DNA from: Deltaproteobacteria bacterium
GTDB taxonomy: Bacteria; Myxococcota_A; UBA796; UBA9615
NCBI GenBank assembly: GCA_002724675.1
Contig: PBPL01000176.1
Coordinates: 1-35,235, forward strand
Direction: 5' to 3'
Length of the DNA: 35,235 nt
In this document: positions 2 through 16,932 of the stretch, piece after piece
Numbering within the stretch: the stretch's first letter is position 1
How the letters are laid out: each line of letters starts with the position of its first letter
Translations under genes and position numbers: made by a program
The notes under the pieces: generated by a model
The model's database searches: none
What the model was told of the DNA's origin: nothing
Seen by the model: the letters and a program-made list of their open reading frames with translations, nothing else

Positions 2-676
2 AGCCAGCAACTGCTCCTTGGCCCGGGGGTCACCGAAGCGGTGGAGGTCGTGGTGAGTGGGCTGGCATCCGAAGATCCCCCTGGCGCTATTTGGCTCGAC
101 ACGAACGATCCGATGCGTCAGGAGCGACGAGCTACGCTGGTCCTACTCTCTGGCGGGCTCGCCGAAGGGGATTCGGTGCCCGACTTCCGCTTGCCCATCA
201 TCAACCGGTGCGCAGAGGGCACGTGTACGACGGAGCCCGAGTGTTTTCGGCACTATGATCCTCAGTGGGGTCAGATGCCCATTCTGATCGCGTTCTACAC
301 ATCTTGGTGACCCATCTGTGGTCTGGAGGTTCCAGATCTTGCAGCGTCGGTGCGAAGCGTCTTTGGTCGGGATGAGGTGGTGATCCTCGCTGTGGCCTGG
401 GAGGAGGGCGTCCAGCGCGCGCTGGAGTATGTGGGTGACACGGGGATTGTCGAGCCGGTAGCGCTGGACCTCAACGGCGTGGATGCGAACTGTTGGGAGA
501 TTCCCGAAGGTGAGAGTTCCTTGTATCGCTACTTCAACGATCGGGTGGCCCTGTCCGCTCTCGACAGTCCGTTCCCTTTCCAGATTCTGCTGGCTCCCGA
601 CGGTACCCTTGCCTACGCAAGCCGCCTGCACCAGCCGGACGTGATTCTGGCCAGAATCGGTGAGATGCTTCCGTGA
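2..676 (+). CDS. Thioredoxin/TlpA-like selenoprotein, 5'-partial, in-frame TGA read as selenocysteine
   Basis: The frame is open from the first base, so the start lies upstream; 224 residues are visible. A redoxin-type entry (GDSVPDFRLPIIN) begins about 45 residues before FYTSW-TGA-PICGLEVPDL. TlpA/ResA-type thioredoxins have WCxxC here, so the TGA at 308-310 sits exactly at the N-terminal redox cysteine, giving WUxxC. The same frame continues for 121 codons with typical thioredoxin-fold sequence (VVILAVAWEEG, then FPFQILLAPDGTLAYA), ending at TGA 674-676. A hairpin with a GGU loop follows the first TGA at SECIS spacing. Three more cysteines (CAEGTC...C) precede the motif. The expected role is thiol-disulfide exchange, probably outside the cytoplasm as in the TlpA family. 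The stop overlaps the GTG of the next gene. A nonsense mutation is the alternative, but position, hairpin and intact downstream frame argue against it. A gene caller would wrongly split this gene. Confidence 0.85.
308..338 (+). promoter_or_regulatory. Bacterial SECIS-like element following UGA(Sec)
   Basis: After the TGA at 308-310, bases 320-327 pair with 331-338 in eight consecutive pairs (one G-U), leaving the loop GGU at 328-330. Seventeen bases separate UGA from the loop. Bacterial SECIS elements are short hairpins directly downstream of UGA inside the coding region, with a G/GU in the apical loop bound by SelB; the E. coli fdhF element, as I remember it, has about 18 bases and a GGU-containing loop. 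The element also codes for the residues just after Sec, including the resolving Cys. Confidence 0.75.
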
Positions 677-2487
677 TCCGTGGTCCTGCTCGCAGTGCGG
701 TCCCGCTCTTCGCCGTTGCCATGACCCTTTGCGTGCTGTTGTCCTGTAGGGACAGGCCCAACGAGGGAACGGAGCCTGGGGACTGCAGCGACCGCGCCGA
801 TACGGACTCTGACGGTCTCTTCGACTGTGATGATCCTGACTGTGCGGGTTCGCCCGACTGTGCGGGCGATGACGATGACTCCGCTCCTGAAGACGACGAT
901 GGGGACGACGATGACTCGGCTGTCCCGACGTTTGTCGATTTCGAGCTGGGGCCCACGGTGGTGTGTGAAGCGCCGGTTTTGGGGATCGATCGGTTCCGAG
1001 AGGAGGGCGCGGACCGTGGCCTGACCATGATCCTCCAGGACCCAGAGGCACTGTGGGGTGCTGCCTCCGAAGGTACCGGTGGCTCTGTGGTGGCGCAGGA
1101 CATGGACCGGGACGGCGACATGGACATTGTCATCGGGCGGATCGATGGCGCTCCGTGGTTGCTGGAGAATGATGGAAACGGCCAGTTCGTGGAGCACGCG
1201 GTCTCGCTGGCCCCGGAGGAGCAGGCGATTCAGCAAGTCTCGGTGTTGTCGGCTCTGGACATCACCGGAGACCGCCTACCTGAGATCGTGTTGTCTGCTG
1301 GTGGCTACATGGCCTACTTGCCCAATGAGGGCGCCATGACCTTTGGGCCCCCTGTGCTGGCGTACATCGAAGATGATGGCGCGCAGGTCTACATGACGCA
1401 GGTCTGGGGAGATGCGGACAGGGACGGGGACCTGGATGTTGTGCTGCCGGGAACAGGCCCTGTGGGACTGGGACCTGGAGAGGGCCTGGAGCTTGGCGGT
1501 CCAGACCGGCTGTTGCTGGGGGAGGACGGCAATTGGTCCCTCGCCCTGGAGCTCATTGTTGCCGAGGAGGGGTCACGGACGCAGGTGGCGTTGTTCACCG
1601 ACCGTGATGCTGATGGTGATCCGGACCTCTTTATTCCCGCCGACCTGGGGCCGCCCTCGGGCTTCTACAGGAACGATGGCAACGATCCGGCCGGAGTTCC
1701 CATCTTCATTGAGGATGCTGCAGCGATTGGAGCGGACTTGGTGATGGCGGCCATGGGGATCGACTCTGCTGACCTCAACCAGGACGGTGTCCTCGACTAC
1801 TGCATCACTGATGTGGGCCGCCCAAAGTGTCTGCTCTCGGACTCTTCGGGACTCTGGTTCGAGGCTGGGCTCGCACTGGGGATTCTGCCTGAGGTGGAGG
1901 TTGGGTTCGACGGCACCATTGGTTGGGGTTTGAACCTTGCCGATCTGGACAACGATGGTTTTCTGGAGCTAGTGCAGGCCAGCGGACCAGACCAGGGCGC
2001 CGTGCTAGAGGGCCAGCTGGAATACCCGGACTTGCTGTGGCACGGCCAGCCCGATGGGACCTTTGTGGATGTCTCGGCCTTAGTGGGCTTTGACGACCTC
2101 GCGGTCAACTACGGGATGGTGACGGCCGACTTCAATGGTGATGGCTACCTGGACCTGCTCGTCACAGGTCCCCAGCATCGGCCTAGCTTGTACATGAACC
2201 AGTGTGGGGCGGAGGCTTGGTTACTCGTTGAACTGGAAGGGCTCGCTGGGAACACCGAGGCCATGGGAGCGTGGGTCGAGGTGGTCGTGGGTGCGACCAC
2301 ACGGATCCGGGAGGTCTACAACCTGAGGACTCAGAGCCAGACACCATCGCGGGTGCACTTTGGGCTGGGGGATGTGGACACCGTGGACCTGCTCCGTGTC
2401 CGTTGGCCCGATGGCACCGTGACCGAGCGCGCCAATGTGGATACTCGACGGGTCATTGTGGCCAGCCACCCTCAGCGGGAGGACTGA
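673..2487 (+). CDS. FG-GAP/VCBS beta-propeller lipoprotein with C-terminal ASPIC/UnbV domain
   Basis: A GTG start overlaps the stop of the selenoprotein gene (GTGA), so translation is probably coupled. The signal peptide ends in VLLSC with Cys25, a lipoprotein signal. Residues about 38-80 hold one Cys/Asp cassette (CSDRADTDSDGLFDC and following) and an acidic DDDDSA linker. Seven DxDxDG-type loops follow from about residue 143 to 490, for example DMDRDGDMD, DADRDGDLD and DFNGDGYLD, which suggests a seven-bladed calcium-binding propeller. The last ~85 residues are an ASPIC/UnbV domain (RVHFGLGDVDTVDLLRVRWPDG). Families of this type (CRTAC1-like) are exported; their biochemical role is mostly unknown. 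It is a close paralogue of the protein at 8091-10052 in blade order and C-terminus. Confidence 0.9.
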   Translation: MIRGPARSAVPLFAVAMTLCVLLSCRDRPNEGTEPGDCSDRADTDSDGLFDCDDPDCAGSPDCAGDDDDSAPEDDDGDDDDSAVPTFVDFELGPTVVCEAPVLGIDRFREEGADRGLTMILQDPEALWGAASEGTGGSVVAQDMDRDGDMDIVIGRIDGAPWLLENDGNGQFVEHAVSLAPEEQAIQQVSVLSALDITGDRLPEIVLSAGGYMAYLPNEGAMTFGPPVLAYIEDDGAQVYMTQVWGDADRDGDLDVVLPGTGPVGLGPGEGLELGGPDRLLLGEDGNWSLALELIVAEEGSRTQVALFTDRDADGDPDLFIPADLGPPSGFYRNDGNDPAGVPIFIEDAAAIGADLVMAAMGIDSADLNQDGVLDYCITDVGRPKCLLSDSSGLWFEAGLALGILPEVEVGFDGTIGWGLNLADLDNDGFLELVQASGPDQGAVLEGQLEYPDLLWHGQPDGTFVDVSALVGFDDLAVNYGMVTADFNGDGYLDLLVTGPQHRPSLYMNQCGAEAWLLVELEGLAGNTEAMGAWVEVVVGATTRIREVYNLRTQSQTPSRVHFGLGDVDTVDLLRVRWPDGTVTERANVDTRRVIVASHPQRED

Positions 2488-8090: not shown

Positions 8091-10052
8091 TCAGGGGGAG
8101 CTGTAGCGCGGATGCAGCAGCGTGATTTGCCGGCGAACTGGGAGGTTGGTCGCCTCCGTGGCGGTGCCATCTGGCCACCGCACCCTAAGTTGGTCGATCG
8201 TTTCCGCATCGCCGAGACCAAAGTGAAGCCGGGAGGGGCTTTGACCCACAGACCGCAGGTTGTAGAGCTCACGAACCTGGGTCTGATTGTTAGCAGTCAC
8301 CTCGACACGAGCGCCGTATGCCTCAGCATTCTCGGCTGGGCCCACCAGCTCGATTTCGCTCCATGCGCCAGCAGCACAGGGGTTCATCCACAGCTTGGGC
8401 CGACCAGCGTCAGGCACAATGATCAAGTCTCGGGCTCCGTTGCCGTCGAAGTCGGCTGCTGCCATTCCGTAGTGGGCGGTCAGATCGCCAAAGCCTAGCT
8501 CCTGGGTTCGCTCCGTGAACGAGCCATCCGCGTTGCCCTCCCACAGTGCGTCGGGCTGGAAGGTGCAGGGGCAGTACCATGTGCTGTCAGGGTCGCGGGG
8601 TGGGGTGGGGCCCGCCACGGCAGCAAGGTCTAAGTCACCATCATGGTCGAAGTCGAGTAGCTCGACGGACCAGCCGAACCATTGGCAAAAAAGGTCTGCC
8701 CCTCCCCCCTGATTCATGCACCACTGATCGCAGTCTGGATCATCACAGTCCACGAGGCTGTCGTTGTCGTTGTCGATGCCATCCTCGCAGTTGGGGCATC
8801 CGTCGGGCTGACAGTCCAGTCCTGCCTCGTTGCTTTCATTGTCGCCAGGGCTGTCTCCGCCGGGGTCTCCTCCACCAGGCTGTGCGCCTCCGCCCATGTC
8901 GGGATGCAGCGCTTCCTCACTCCAGTCGGGGTGTGCTTCTAGGTCCGGGACGAGCCCCAAGGCCAAGCCTGACTCGATGTAGCCCGCGCCCTCATCACTG
9001 AGAAGACAGTAGATGTAGTCGTCGCTCATGCAGTAGTCGACCAAGCCATCTGCGTTCATGTCGGCCGCGCCCAGCCCCATGGCGGAAAAACGGAGGTCAG
9101 CGCTGACCTCCGGCGCGTCATTCTCGAAGACAGGCTGCCCCAGAGAGTCCAGGCCGTCGTTCCTGTAAAAAGCTGTGGGGGGCATCGGGGCTTGCGGGCG
9201 GTCTGAGGTGATGAGCACGTCAAAGTCGCCATCGTTGTCTCGGTCGGTGAATGCCCCAAGGAACGAGAGCCCCGGGACGCCAGCCGGTGACAGCTCATGA
9301 CTGAGGCGAAAGGCTCCCCCTTCGTTCAGTAGCAAGAGGTCAAAGGTTCCCTCTTGTGGTTGCCCTTGGTGTTGATTGAAGCCCCCTTCAGGCAACGGGT
9401 CGAGGCCGGGCAGAATGAGATCTAGGTCCCCATCGCCGTCCGCATCGCCAAACGAGAGGGTGTTGAAGCAGGTCTTGGGGTAGACCTCTTGTGCGAACAG
9501 CACCTCAAGGGGCCCGAAGCTCAACTCGCCCAGGTTGTGCGCCAGAAGGACAAGGCCAGGTCCGGTCATGATCACTTCAGGAAGGGAGTCGCCGGTCAGA
9601 TCCACGGCGGCGTGCGCAGACATGCGCACCCCGAATGTCTCGATAGTGTCCTGAGCTTGGGCGACTTCGGTGAAGTGACCTGTCCCGTCATTGCTGAACA
9701 GGTGGGGGAAGCCGGAGGCGCGATACACGAGGAGGTCATCATCGCCGTCCCCGTCTAGATCTTGTGCCACGACCCCCCCTGGAACAACGAAGCAAGAGGT
9801 GGGGTCCTCGTCGACTGTCAATTGGATGTCTAGGCCTCTGTTCAGGCCTTCTTCCGTGAAGCGGGCCATGCCCTCCACTGGGTTCGCACAGGAGATCTCC
9901 TCGCCGAGCAGGATGTTGTCGCCGGCAGCATCGGCGGTCTCGGGGCTCTCTTGCGAAGTGCAGCCGGTGCTAATCCACAGGATCGTGACGAGGCCTAGGG
10001 CCCCCAGAGTAGCCCCCGAGCGACGACTGTGGATGAGGCGAACCGAGGGCAT
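8091..10052 (-). CDS. FG-GAP/VCBS beta-propeller lipoprotein with ASPIC/UnbV domain and an inserted Cys/Asp cassette
   Basis: I chose ATG 10052, which gives a 653-residue protein whose signal peptide ends in WISTGC (Cys31); an in-frame ATG at 10091 would add 13 residues. Seven DxDxDG-like blade motifs are visible: DLDGDGDDD, DLTGDSLPE, DADGDGDLD, DRDNDGDFD, DMNADGLVD, DFDHDGDLD and DFDGNGARD, in the same order as in the protein at 673-2487. The ASPIC/UnbV domain closes the protein (LHFGLGDAETIDQLRVRWPDG). Unlike its paralogue, it carries about 85 extra residues between blades five and six: a Gly/Pro/Asp linker plus one Cys/Asp cassette (CEDGIDNDNDSLVDC-DDPDC). It is divergent from the six-cysteine protein gene at 10145. 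An exported calcium-binding role is inferred. Confidence 0.88.
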   Translation of the reverse strand: MPSVRLIHSRRSGATLGALGLVTILWISTGCTSQESPETADAAGDNILLGEEISCANPVEGMARFTEEGLNRGLDIQLTVDEDPTSCFVVPGGVVAQDLDGDGDDDLLVYRASGFPHLFSNDGTGHFTEVAQAQDTIETFGVRMSAHAAVDLTGDSLPEVIMTGPGLVLLAHNLGELSFGPLEVLFAQEVYPKTCFNTLSFGDADGDGDLDLILPGLDPLPEGGFNQHQGQPQEGTFDLLLLNEGGAFRLSHELSPAGVPGLSFLGAFTDRDNDGDFDVLITSDRPQAPMPPTAFYRNDGLDSLGQPVFENDAPEVSADLRFSAMGLGAADMNADGLVDYCMSDDYIYCLLSDEGAGYIESGLALGLVPDLEAHPDWSEEALHPDMGGGAQPGGGDPGGDSPGDNESNEAGLDCQPDGCPNCEDGIDNDNDSLVDCDDPDCDQWCMNQGGGADLFCQWFGWSVELLDFDHDGDLDLAAVAGPTPPRDPDSTWYCPCTFQPDALWEGNADGSFTERTQELGFGDLTAHYGMAAADFDGNGARDLIIVPDAGRPKLWMNPCAAGAWSEIELVGPAENAEAYGARVEVTANNQTQVRELYNLRSVGQSPSRLHFGLGDAETIDQLRVRWPDGTATEATNLPVRRQITLLHPRYSSP

Positions 10053-10144
10053 ACCGTTGAGGATAGCGCCTCCCTTGCACCGGCGGGCCATGCTAGTGTC
10101 GCCCCCGGTTCGGACGTCGCCATCAAGGTCCGTTGGAGGAGCTC

Positions 10145-13859: not shown

Positions 13860-15080
13860 TCAGGAGTCCATGAAGCAGGCTTGCAGCATGGCAAAGTGCG
13901 CCTTCTCGTGGGCGGTGAGTGGCACGGAGTTGCCAGCGTCGAGCTGGATCTCAATGTCTCGCAGGGCTGGAGCCGTCCCCTCTCTCGGGAATGGGAAGAG
14001 CGTGCAGCCTGCCCCGGACAGGGTGTCCACGTCTTGGGTTGTCTTTCCGGCTGGGGGCAAGGCGATGGCGCAGATCCAAAGGGGCTCGCCAGGGGCAGCG
14101 AGATAGCTGAGAGAGAACTCTTCATCGGCCCGGATCGCGGTGACTACACGGGGGTCTTCTGCGACGTCTTGGCCGCTCAGTACGTCAATGGGTGCCGCGG
14201 CAACGAAGAAGCCTCCGGGGCCCTTCTCGGCCATCTTCACCCGGCCGGAGATGTTCCGCCGAACTCTCTTGCCTTGGGTGGGCCGGTCGTCGAAACGATC
14301 GAGGCCGATCAGCCCCAGCTTTTGTCCTCCAGGCTTCAGCACGATGTCGGTAGCGACGGCTAGCTTGCCTGCCTTCACCTGCGCGGGGTGGCAGCCGAAG
14401 TGGCCGAAGTACTCGATGCCGGCTAGGTCAGTGGGGACCACAGCACAGATCCAAAGCTGCTCAACCGGTGCCTTGAACGACATCTTGTAGTTGGGGCCCT
14501 GGGTCCTCGTTGTCCCATAGACGCGGAGCACCCGATCCGGCTCCAGAGTGTCCACTCGCTGGTCCATGGCCATGACGATGTAGGCGCCCCCCCCTTCTCT
14601 AGCGGCACCGGCTGGGAGGCTGAGGACACCGGTCACTTGGAAGTCTTCGGTTCCCCCCTCGATTGGCAGGATGCAGGATTCCGAGGCATTGGGGCCTGCA
14701 TTCACGGGGCGATCGGGCCCGTCTCCAGGCCCGCCGTCGGGCCAGTTCTCGTCGGGACCCTGGCCTGGACCTCCTTGCCAGTTCTCGTCGGGTTGGAGCC
14801 CTGGCTGCCCAGGCCCCCGTCCATCGGGGCCTGGGCCACGAGGGTCTCCAGGACCCTGAGCACGGTTGGCTTGGTCGGGTTTGTTGGCAGGATCAAAGGG
14901 ATATTCGTCGGGATGCAGGAAGCGCGTGGGCTCTTCAGCCTTCGAGGTGTCTCGTACTTCCCGGTCGCTCGCGCAGCCGCTGCTGATAGTCAGTAGACAG
15001 AGAGCAGCGATCATCACAAAGCTCGTTGCTGCTGGGCCGTGCGAGTGTGTCTGTTCAGTGGTGTGGGCCAAAGGTGTCAC
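13860..15080 (-). CDS. Two-domain six-cysteine lipoprotein, paralogue of the 10145-11341 product
   Basis: The 406-residue product (GTG start, no clear ribosome site) has a signal peptide ending in TISSGC (Cys36). A Gly/Pro/Asp linker with a repeated PDENW motif follows. Then come a lone Cys (SESCILPIEGG) and two ~95-residue domains. Domain one runs from FQVTGVLSLPAG to WICAVV...HFGC. Domain two runs from RRNISGRVKM through GFFVAAAPIDVLSG to WICAIA...GAGC. The end (HEKAHFAMLQACFMDS) matches HFALLQKCLASS of the paralogue, and all six domain and flanking cysteines are shared. It differs in being lipid-anchored rather than carrying a signal anchor. It is divergent from the ASPIC propeller gene at 15202, as its paralogue is divergent from the propeller gene ending at 10052. 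Function unknown. Confidence 0.8.
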   Translation of the reverse strand: MTPLAHTTEQTHSHGPAATSFVMIAALCLLTISSGCASDREVRDTSKAEEPTRFLHPDEYPFDPANKPDQANRAQGPGDPRGPGPDGRGPGQPGLQPDENWQGGPGQGPDENWPDGGPGDGPDRPVNAGPNASESCILPIEGGTEDFQVTGVLSLPAGAAREGGGAYIVMAMDQRVDTLEPDRVLRVYGTTRTQGPNYKMSFKAPVEQLWICAVVPTDLAGIEYFGHFGCHPAQVKAGKLAVATDIVLKPGGQKLGLIGLDRFDDRPTQGKRVRRNISGRVKMAEKGPGGFFVAAAPIDVLSGQDVAEDPRVVTAIRADEEFSLSYLAAPGEPLWICAIALPPAGKTTQDVDTLSGAGCTLFPFPREGTAPALRDIEIQLDAGNSVPLTAHEKAHFAMLQACFMDS

Positions 15081-15142
15081 GGGTCCGCCAGGAGGAGTCG
15101 CAGCGAAAAACTGTGCTCGTTGGGAAAGGATACCAGCGCCTC

Positions 15143-15168
15143 CGGGCCTGTTTCGGCCCGCATGCGGG
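15143..15168. promoter_or_regulatory. Overlapping palindromes in a divergent intergenic region
   Basis: CGGGCC (15143-15148) can pair with GGCCCG (15155-15160) across a six-base loop. CCCGCATGCGGG (15157-15168) is a perfect 12-base palindrome that shares bases with the first. Both lie in the 121-base gap between the divergent starts at 15080 and 15202. They could be an operator or alternative 5' UTR folds; no ligand or regulator can be named. Confidence 0.3.
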
Positions 15169-15201
15169 AGCGGGAGGTGGGGTGTATGGTCGAATCAGGT
15201 C

Positions 15202-16932
15202 ATGCAAGCCCCATCCCCCCCGTTGTCTGCCTGGCTGCCTCTGGTCTGGTCCGTCGTGGTCCTCTGCGCTTGCGGGGCGCCGGCGGACGACGACGACAGC
15301 GCTTCTTGCTGTGAGGACTCAGGCGTAGTCCCCGAGCAGCGTGAGGTTGGTGTGGAGTCCTCGGACGTTGTGGTGTGTTCGGACCCGGGCGCTCGAGCAC
15401 TGGGGCCCATGTATTCGGCTCAGGCAGGTCCCGACTTCGAGCAGCAGCAGGGATGGACGCCCACAGCTGAGGATCTGCCCTCCGGGCTCGCTGTAGCTGA
15501 CTTCGATGGCGACGGGCGGGCCGATGTGTTTTGGCCTACAGGGCTGTTTCTGACCCAGGAGGACGGGACCCTCTCCAACGTCACGTCGAGTCACCTGGCT
15601 GACTTCGGTTACGACATCGAGGGGTTGAGCGCAGCGGACTACGACGGTGACGGCGACCACGACGTGCTGGCGACGGGATTCAATGGCTTTCGGCTGTTGG
15701 AGAATGATGGCAGCGGCGTGTTTACCAACGTCACTGCGTCTGCGGGGTTAGATGCAGCGCCTTTGAACACTGGTACCAGTGCCTGGGCGGACTACGATCT
15801 CGATGGTGACCTGGATCTGGCGGTGATGGTCTTGGAGTCGCTGGATCCCGAAGGCGAGAGCCTGGAGGCGATCATCGAGGGCACGATGCCCGCTGGACTG
15901 GAGAGCCGTCTCTACGAGAATCAGGGGGATGGGACCTTTGTCCATCGAGTGGACCTCCTGCCTCCCGCGGCGAATCAGGGCTACACCTGCGCTGGCGGCT
16001 GGCATGACGTGGATGCTGACGGGCGGCTCGATCTCTATCTCGTCAATGACTTTGGGCCTCAGGTGCAAGGCAACCGATTGCTGAGGAATACGGAGGATGG
16101 TTTCACGGATGTCAGCCAGTCTCTGGCACTGGATGTGGAGATCTACGGGATGGGCCTGGGTATGGGCGACCTCAATGGTGATGGGGTTCCCGACTTCTTG
16201 GCGACCAGCTGGGAAGACATCGCGCTGTTGGAGAGCAGTGTAGACGGCACTTGGTATCGGTCGGAGCTGGCACGCGGTGTGGTGCTAGGACCCGATCAGC
16301 ATGCCTCCTGGGGCGCACACCTGGTGGACATGGACAACGATACGGATCTGGATGCTCTGGTGGCATTCGGGAACCTGCCCGATCACGGCGCCGAAGAGAG
16401 CCAGCAGATTGAAGAGGGCCTGGGGCTCGTGAACACCCCTGGCCAGCCCGATGCCCTGTTCATTCAGCGGGAGGATGGGGGCTTCTTCGATAGCGCCTCT
16501 TCGTGGAACCTCGATGATGATCGGGATGGCTACAGCATCGTGCCGGTTGATCTCAACGGTGACGGTTGGCTCGATGCGGTGAAGTCCGATCGGATCTGGC
16601 TGAGTCGGTGCGGAGATGCCTCTTGGATTCGAGTCGTACTCTGGGGGCCGTCGCCCAATCACTTCGCTGTGGGGGCTCGTGTCACTGTCGAGGCTGATGG
16701 CCGGAGCCAACATCGCTGGGTGGTCGCCGGTAGTACCGGTCACGGAAGCTCTATGCCTCCGGAGGCTCACTTTGGCCTGGCTACTGCGGAGCGAGTCGAC
16801 CGAATCACCGTGACCTGGCCTGATGGCGCGGTGAGTGTGGTCGAGGGCCTAGAAGCTCGGCGAGTGGTGCGTCTTGTTCGAGAAGACGCGAGCCTAGAGC
16901 CGCCTCCGCTGCCGCTGCCCAGCTTGTTTTGA
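15202..16932 (+). CDS. FG-GAP/VCBS beta-propeller lipoprotein with ASPIC/UnbV domain
   Basis: The frame extends upstream, but ATG 15202 gives a proper signal peptide ending in VVVLCAC (Cys24), followed by an acidic DDDDSA stretch; the product has 576 residues. Seven blade motifs can be read: DFDGDGRAD, DYDGDGDHD, DYDLDGDLD, DVDADGRLD, DLNGDGVPD, DMDNDTDLD and DLNGDGWLD. The C-terminal ~90 residues form an ASPIC/UnbV domain (AHFGLATAERVDRITVTWPDG). It is more distant from the two other propellers in the window than they are from each other, and it lacks the Cys/Asp cassette except for a short acidic CCEDSG segment. It is divergent from the six-cysteine lipoprotein gene. An exported, calcium-binding role is inferred from the family. 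Confidence 0.88.
   Translation: MQAPSPPLSAWLPLVWSVVVLCACGAPADDDDSASCCEDSGVVPEQREVGVESSDVVVCSDPGARALGPMYSAQAGPDFEQQQGWTPTAEDLPSGLAVADFDGDGRADVFWPTGLFLTQEDGTLSNVTSSHLADFGYDIEGLSAADYDGDGDHDVLATGFNGFRLLENDGSGVFTNVTASAGLDAAPLNTGTSAWADYDLDGDLDLAVMVLESLDPEGESLEAIIEGTMPAGLESRLYENQGDGTFVHRVDLLPPAANQGYTCAGGWHDVDADGRLDLYLVNDFGPQVQGNRLLRNTEDGFTDVSQSLALDVEIYGMGLGMGDLNGDGVPDFLATSWEDIALLESSVDGTWYRSELARGVVLGPDQHASWGAHLVDMDNDTDLDALVAFGNLPDHGAEESQQIEEGLGLVNTPGQPDALFIQREDGGFFDSASSWNLDDDRDGYSIVPVDLNGDGWLDAVKSDRIWLSRCGDASWIRVVLWGPSPNHFAVGARVTVEADGRSQHRWVVAGSTGHGSSMPPEAHFGLATAERVDRITVTWPDGAVSVVEGLEARRVVRLVREDASLEPPPLPLPSLF

Follow-up and report, generated by a model that had tools for sequence, protein, structure and literature searches.

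Does the TGA codon at positions 308–310 of contig PBPL01000176.1 interrupt a redoxin gene, or does it encode selenocysteine within one? The contig (G000:C138), analysed here as one window of 35,235 nucleotides, belongs to a metagenome-assembled genome (MAG; G000) of 259 contigs and 4.8 Mb that is 90% complete. An open frame on the + strand, at 2–673, has this TGA as its sole interruption and ends at a second TGA (674–676) – the true stop, which overlaps the GTG start (673–675) of the next gene and at which protein alignments finish. The peptide around the internal codon reads FYTSW-U-PICGLEVPDL. The TGA replaces the first cysteine of a WCxxC redoxin motif (attacking position, residue 103 of the fragment), and the resolving cysteine is kept (C106, TGT 317–319). 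An original prediction, made from the DNA letters alone, had described one frame passing through the TGA with thioredoxin-fold sequence on both sides, the TGA falling exactly on the first cysteine and the second retained; frame and translation bear out both points.

The contig starts inside the gene. Positions 2–676 encode no more than the last ~224 residues of a larger gene product, and the 5' part lies beyond the left contig end. The closest relatives of the fragment are a paralogue in the same MAG (G000:C12, 59% identity) and a gene from another genus (G001:C96, 60%), both of which carry the TGA. The two G000 paralogues are each cut by a contig end upstream of the redoxin (position 1 of the window; the right end of G000:C12, 49402), and near-identical 5' parts may have broken the assembly at both.

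We examined the recoded codon across homologues. Among 71 genomes of the class, 51 of 56 matches over 100 bits have exactly one internal TGA. The codon at the site is TGA or Cys in every family member read individually, the pattern that the original prediction expected of Cys-containing homologues, and the resolving cysteine is invariant in two family alignments. Scanning GTDB genomes with a sequence pattern gave 82 stretches; 78 of the 80 loci listed are TGA family members, while one of the other two has TGG and the last is a short, spurious frame. The pattern-found members come, under submitters' names, from Myxococcota, Neomarinimicrobiota/Fidelibacterota, Krumholzibacteriota, Zixibacteria, Gemmatimonadota, Armatimonadota and others. 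Judged by sequence, relatives with a predicted recoded codon, the hairpin described below and largely the same domain layout span at least six bacterial phyla. In several cases (L112, L110, L121, G058:C915), a single contig carries two or three TGA members at short distances from one another, as tandem paralogues. IMG/VR viral contigs gave no match to the selenoprotein.

These comparisons bear on two readings in which the UGA is not decoded. A pseudogene or sequencing error would place a nonsense TGA in an ordinary Cys-type redoxin; the codon is one base from TGC or TGT and the gene abuts the end of a MAG contig, but the TGA occupies exactly the same codon in the same-genome paralogue and in dozens of homologues from other genomes and phyla, and the frame beyond it is still conserved. 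Conservation of the TGA across independent assemblies refutes this reading in our view and leaves it practically no probability. Alternatively, the UGA could stop translation by design, with the upstream part as the product and the downstream frame a decayed relic. Bacterial UGA decoding is often inefficient, and a truncated product is to be expected on that ground. However, in a codon comparison with the G001 homologue and the paralogue, amino-acid conservation after the TGA is at least equal to that before it, including the resolving cysteine and the cis-Pro region, and regulated termination is accordingly very hard to credit.

If the UGA is instead decoded as selenocysteine, a bacterial SECIS element is expected in the mRNA. 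The stretch at 320–338 folds into a hairpin of eight pairs (320–327 with 331–338, one of them G-U) with a GGU loop at 328–330, placing 17 nt (311–327) between UGA and loop. The pairs, loop and distance are those of the original prediction, which had also started the hairpin immediately after the UGA; that detail did not hold, as the strong stem begins 9 nt downstream. Bacterial SECIS hairpins lie within about 16–37 nt of the UGA and carry a G in the loop, and the fragment hairpin shows both features. It resembles the element of Escherichia coli fdhF in following just after the UGA with a GGUC/GGUU loop, and family members of register 45 have the AGGUCU loop; it differs in its 17-nt distance to the loop, against about 18 in fdhF, and in that some family members have a GUU loop.

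The main hairpin statistics were drawn from 23 TGA members that had been collected through protein similarity alone and not selected on DNA, because the search pattern behind the DNA-found set already dictates part of the stem. Tested against synonymous recodings that preserve the peptide, the fragment hairpin alone gives p=0.03; across the 23 members the 23-nt core has a mean z of -3.7 (p<0.05 in 87%), against a mean z of -0.3 for Cys redoxins in the same test. The inner stem forms in all 23; 15 members share one register, 8 are offset from it by one, and the loops are GGUU, GGUC, GUUU or GGCU. At stem pair 14-30 of this set we observed a compensatory swap from G-C to C-G that is coupled to an Asp-to-Glu change in the protein (C-G with Glu in L020, L054, L126, L168 and L174), and the protein sequence thus appears to be shaped by RNA structure at this pair. 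Pair 17-27 swaps T-A for C-G in the pattern-found set, which is itself partly selected on the stem. One Cys member (L039 / G049:C3; TGC at L039 1606–1608) stands among Sec members with a SECIS-type hairpin still present, and looks like a recent Sec-to-Cys replacement.

We next consider the decoding machinery. The MAG encodes SelA (contig C93, 469 bits) and SelD (contig C204, 365 bits), both above curated cut-offs, and SelB (contig C171, 306 bits against a cut-off of 242). The SelD gene (L071 1319–2272, G000:C204) is itself of the Sec form, with one in-frame TGA read within SAG-U-ASKLP, and is a second Sec-type gene in the MAG. A tRNA-Sec was absent from searches of this 90%-complete assembly with the Rfam model, the G001 gene DNA, a custom covariance model built from the genes of eight relatives and an anticodon-arm pattern; the pattern candidates that ARAGORN called were tRNA-Ser. 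The gene is clear in the same-family genomes G001, G002 and G004, where ARAGORN confirms the anticodon TCA. A missing gene of ~100 bp in an incomplete MAG is weak evidence against Sec. The original prediction had named selA, selB, selD and tRNA-Sec (selC) as the genes to look for, and the first three were found; it had also held that their absence from a complete genome would tell against it, a case that does not arise here because the MAG is only 90% complete and the three relatives have tRNA-Sec.

Across the class, three genomes with neither SelB over the cut-off nor tRNA-Sec (G015, G016, G035) had no TGA member among the matches listed. Another (G028) has TGA members and tRNA-Sec while its SelB is not above the cut-off, a gap that probably reflects incompleteness. 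In G006, G012, G019 and G038 (94–97% complete), SelB scores over the cut-off and two models plus the pattern found no tRNA-Sec, apart from a marginal 47-bit Rfam match in G012; G006, G019 and G038 also carry TGA members. These four gaps may reflect limits of the searches or an unusual tRNA-Sec.

The tRNA-Sec result for the source assembly is the point that would favour a TGA reassigned to, or read through as, Trp, Gly or Cys by an ordinary tRNA. Against this, TGA is the ordinary stop codon in 9 of the 16 window genes checked, the alternative residue in relatives is Cys rather than Trp or Gly, SelA, SelB and SelD are present and the SECIS-like hairpin is conserved; we regard reassignment as improbable. 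The conserved TGA, the three Sel proteins and the conserved, compensated hairpin together indicate that UGA 308–310 is decoded as selenocysteine in a redoxin, with a probability that we put at roughly 0.93 on these sequence data. The central claim of the original prediction, a real selenoprotein with Sec at the attacking position, is thereby upheld.

The redoxin itself occupies 167–673 and is assigned to the AhpC-TSA/Redoxin (ResA/TlpA-like) group by a thioredoxin fold with C/UxxC and a cis-Pro. In the fragment, Pfam AhpC-TSA scores just under its gathering threshold (24.5 against 26, E=2.9e-5) and Redoxin gives 8e-4, while the nearest homologue (L057) and the paralogue exceed the Pfam cut-off. 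The AlphaFold prediction for the domain has a pLDDT of 93.7, its best PDB match is ResA (E=3.6e-9), and the family profile matches ResA with E=2.7e-26. Upstream, 2–157 corresponds to the end of an Ig-like domain (ASH / choice-of-anchor D / DUF1573-like) with the motif LDTNDP, identified by alignment to full-length homologues. A Pfam search of the fragment gave no direct match for this part; in the full-length homologues, Pfam finds HYDIN/ASH/DUF1573 Ig-like domains immediately N-terminal of the redoxin.

In a tree, the fragment, the G001 homologue and the paralogue are grouped at full support within a nine-member subfamily (the window, L047, L114, L101, L141, L157, L167, L171 and L176) that includes Gemmatimonadota rows. 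Alignment places three extra cysteines (C70, C75 and C81 of the fragment, spanning 209–244) in a subfamily-specific insertion and a fourth (C164) at 491–493; each is shared by most or all of the nine members. Such cysteines would be compatible with structural disulfides in an extracytoplasmic protein.

Because the N-terminus lies beyond the contig end, the export signal and propeller of the source protein are predicted from relatives. Full-length relatives are mostly about 600–900 amino acids, and their predicted layout is mostly a lipobox or type IX tail, an LVIVD beta-propeller, an Ig-like domain and the Sec-redoxin. AhpC-TSA and Redoxin match in all 63 long relatives scanned, LVIVD repeats occur in 52, a HYDIN-type Ig-like domain in 34 (others have DUF1573 or ASH) and a type IX sorting tail in 16–20. 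A simple pattern detects a lipobox in 17 of 51 unbroken relatives, with more recognizable by eye, and a lipobox-like signal starts many Myxococcota members. The nearest full-length homologue (G001:C96, 892 amino acids) has a lipobox-like signal, the redoxin and a sub-threshold LVIVD match (18.5 against 20.2 bits). By analogy with these proteins, the full source protein is probably exported. The 'exported-type thioredoxin' of the original prediction therefore finds its backing in the lipoboxes and type IX tails of full-length relatives, though not in the fragment, which has no N-terminus of its own.

Should the protein instead be seen as an ordinary single-domain ResA/TlpA-type selenoprotein (Prx-like or Trx-like UxxC) with no special architecture? 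This question concerns the architecture and leaves the Sec assignment untouched. The catalytic profile matches AhpC-TSA/Redoxin/ResA, UxxC families of this kind are listed (PMC13188914, PMC2398784), a fusion of Prx-like 3 to an unknown domain is noted in PMC2398784, and nothing beyond the redoxin and a partial Ig-like domain is visible in the fragment. However, the length and lipobox-like signal of the nearest homologue, the prevalence of LVIVD and Ig-like domains among long relatives, and the scores of NCBIfam selenoprotein models, all below cut-off in the proteins scanned individually, make the single-domain reading unlikely. We favour, with some reserve, a family of selenoenzymes, as yet unnamed and spread over several phyla, that would sit at the cell surface or in the periplasm. 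Its propeller and Ig scaffold would present a Sec redoxin outward – as lipoproteins in Myxococcota and through type IX export in FCB phyla – and Sec would be strongly preferred over Cys.

Gene neighbourhoods show no conserved neighbour pointing to a substrate. The next gene in the window (673–2487) encodes an FG-GAP/UnbV_ASPIC protein with a lipobox-like start and overlaps the selenoprotein stop (GTGA); further FG-GAP/UnbV genes lie at 8091–10091 (-) and 14866–16932 (+). We rejected a conserved operon with the downstream gene, since the paralogue and the G001 homologue have other neighbours and the window is rich in genes of this type. Similar genes lie downstream only in L101, L141 and L052.

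A putative mechanism can be outlined from homology and analogy. SelB would decode UGA 308–310, guided by the hairpin at 320–338, to yield a protein with a lipobox or type IX signal, an LVIVD propeller, an Ig-like spacer and a C-terminal ResA/TlpA-like redoxin. In the WUPxC motif, Sec would serve as the nucleophile and Cys as the resolving residue: the selenolate would attack a disulfide or peroxide, the resolving cysteine would close an Se-S bond, and a reductant, we guess, would reopen it. The propeller and Ig domains may tether the protein or bind partners. The most likely activity of the protein is that of an extracytoplasmic thiol-disulfide oxidoreductase or thiol-dependent peroxidase, with disulfide or peroxide chemistry at the surface or in the periplasm as its probable function. 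Sequence alone cannot separate thiol-disulfide exchange from peroxide reduction, and we rate an oxidoreductase rather than a peroxidase role at even odds. Any assignment of substrate or partner is a guess.

Standard gene calling would split each gene of this family at the UGA and leave its catalytic half unannotated. The family, which some genomes carry in several copies, suggests that many uncultured aquatic lineages perform selenium-dependent redox reactions outside the cytoplasm. Sec members beside a hairpin-bearing Cys member offer a natural comparison for why Sec is kept.

How does this family relate to known selenoproteins? Table 1 of PMC13188914, Table 2 of PMC2398784 and PMC1088965 list UxxC selenoproteins whose domains are PF00578, PF08534 or TlpA-like, and PMC2398784 also notes the fusion of Prx-like 3 to an unknown domain. 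The Prx-like and Trx-like UxxC families (PF00578, PF08534, COG0526/cd02966) of the Sargasso and GOS selenoproteomes (PMC1088965, PMC2398784) and of PMC13188914 share with the present family a thioredoxin-fold redoxin, Sec at the first Cys of CxxC and a bacterial SECIS just downstream of the UGA. They are set apart by description: these sources list them as redoxin-domain families, and the listings describe neither an LVIVD/Ig-like architecture nor an export signal. The label 'undescribed-looking' in the original prediction holds only in part. UxxC redoxin selenoproteins of a single domain have been described (PMC13188914, PMC2398784), whereas we found no description of LVIVD-Ig-redoxin selenoproteins, an exported, three-domain and Sec-dominated family, in curated family models or open-licence literature.

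Among NCBIfam models, WAxxUGC_long, OS_HP2, PrxU and SelL-related families gave no score above their curated cut-offs in the proteins scanned individually. WAxxUGC_long (NF041054) and the UGC-containing TlpA-family selenoproteins likewise combine a ResA-like domain with Sec, but have a UGC motif where the present family has UPxC, and the best NF041054 score among individually scanned members was 30.8 against a cut-off of 300. OS_HP2 / DUF1573 selenoproteins (NF041425) share a related Ig-like domain; their UGC motif lies inside the DUF1573 domain in the listed proteins, whereas here the match (22.8 against a cut-off of 100) is confined to the Ig-like region that precedes the Sec redoxin.

The closest counterparts of the catalytic domain are ResA, TlpA and CcmG (PDB 1st9, 2h1b, 3c71), which provide its best structural and profile match. 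These proteins are tethered and extracytoplasmic, act in cytochrome c maturation and consist of a single domain on a membrane anchor with no propeller. They use Cys where the present family would use Sec.
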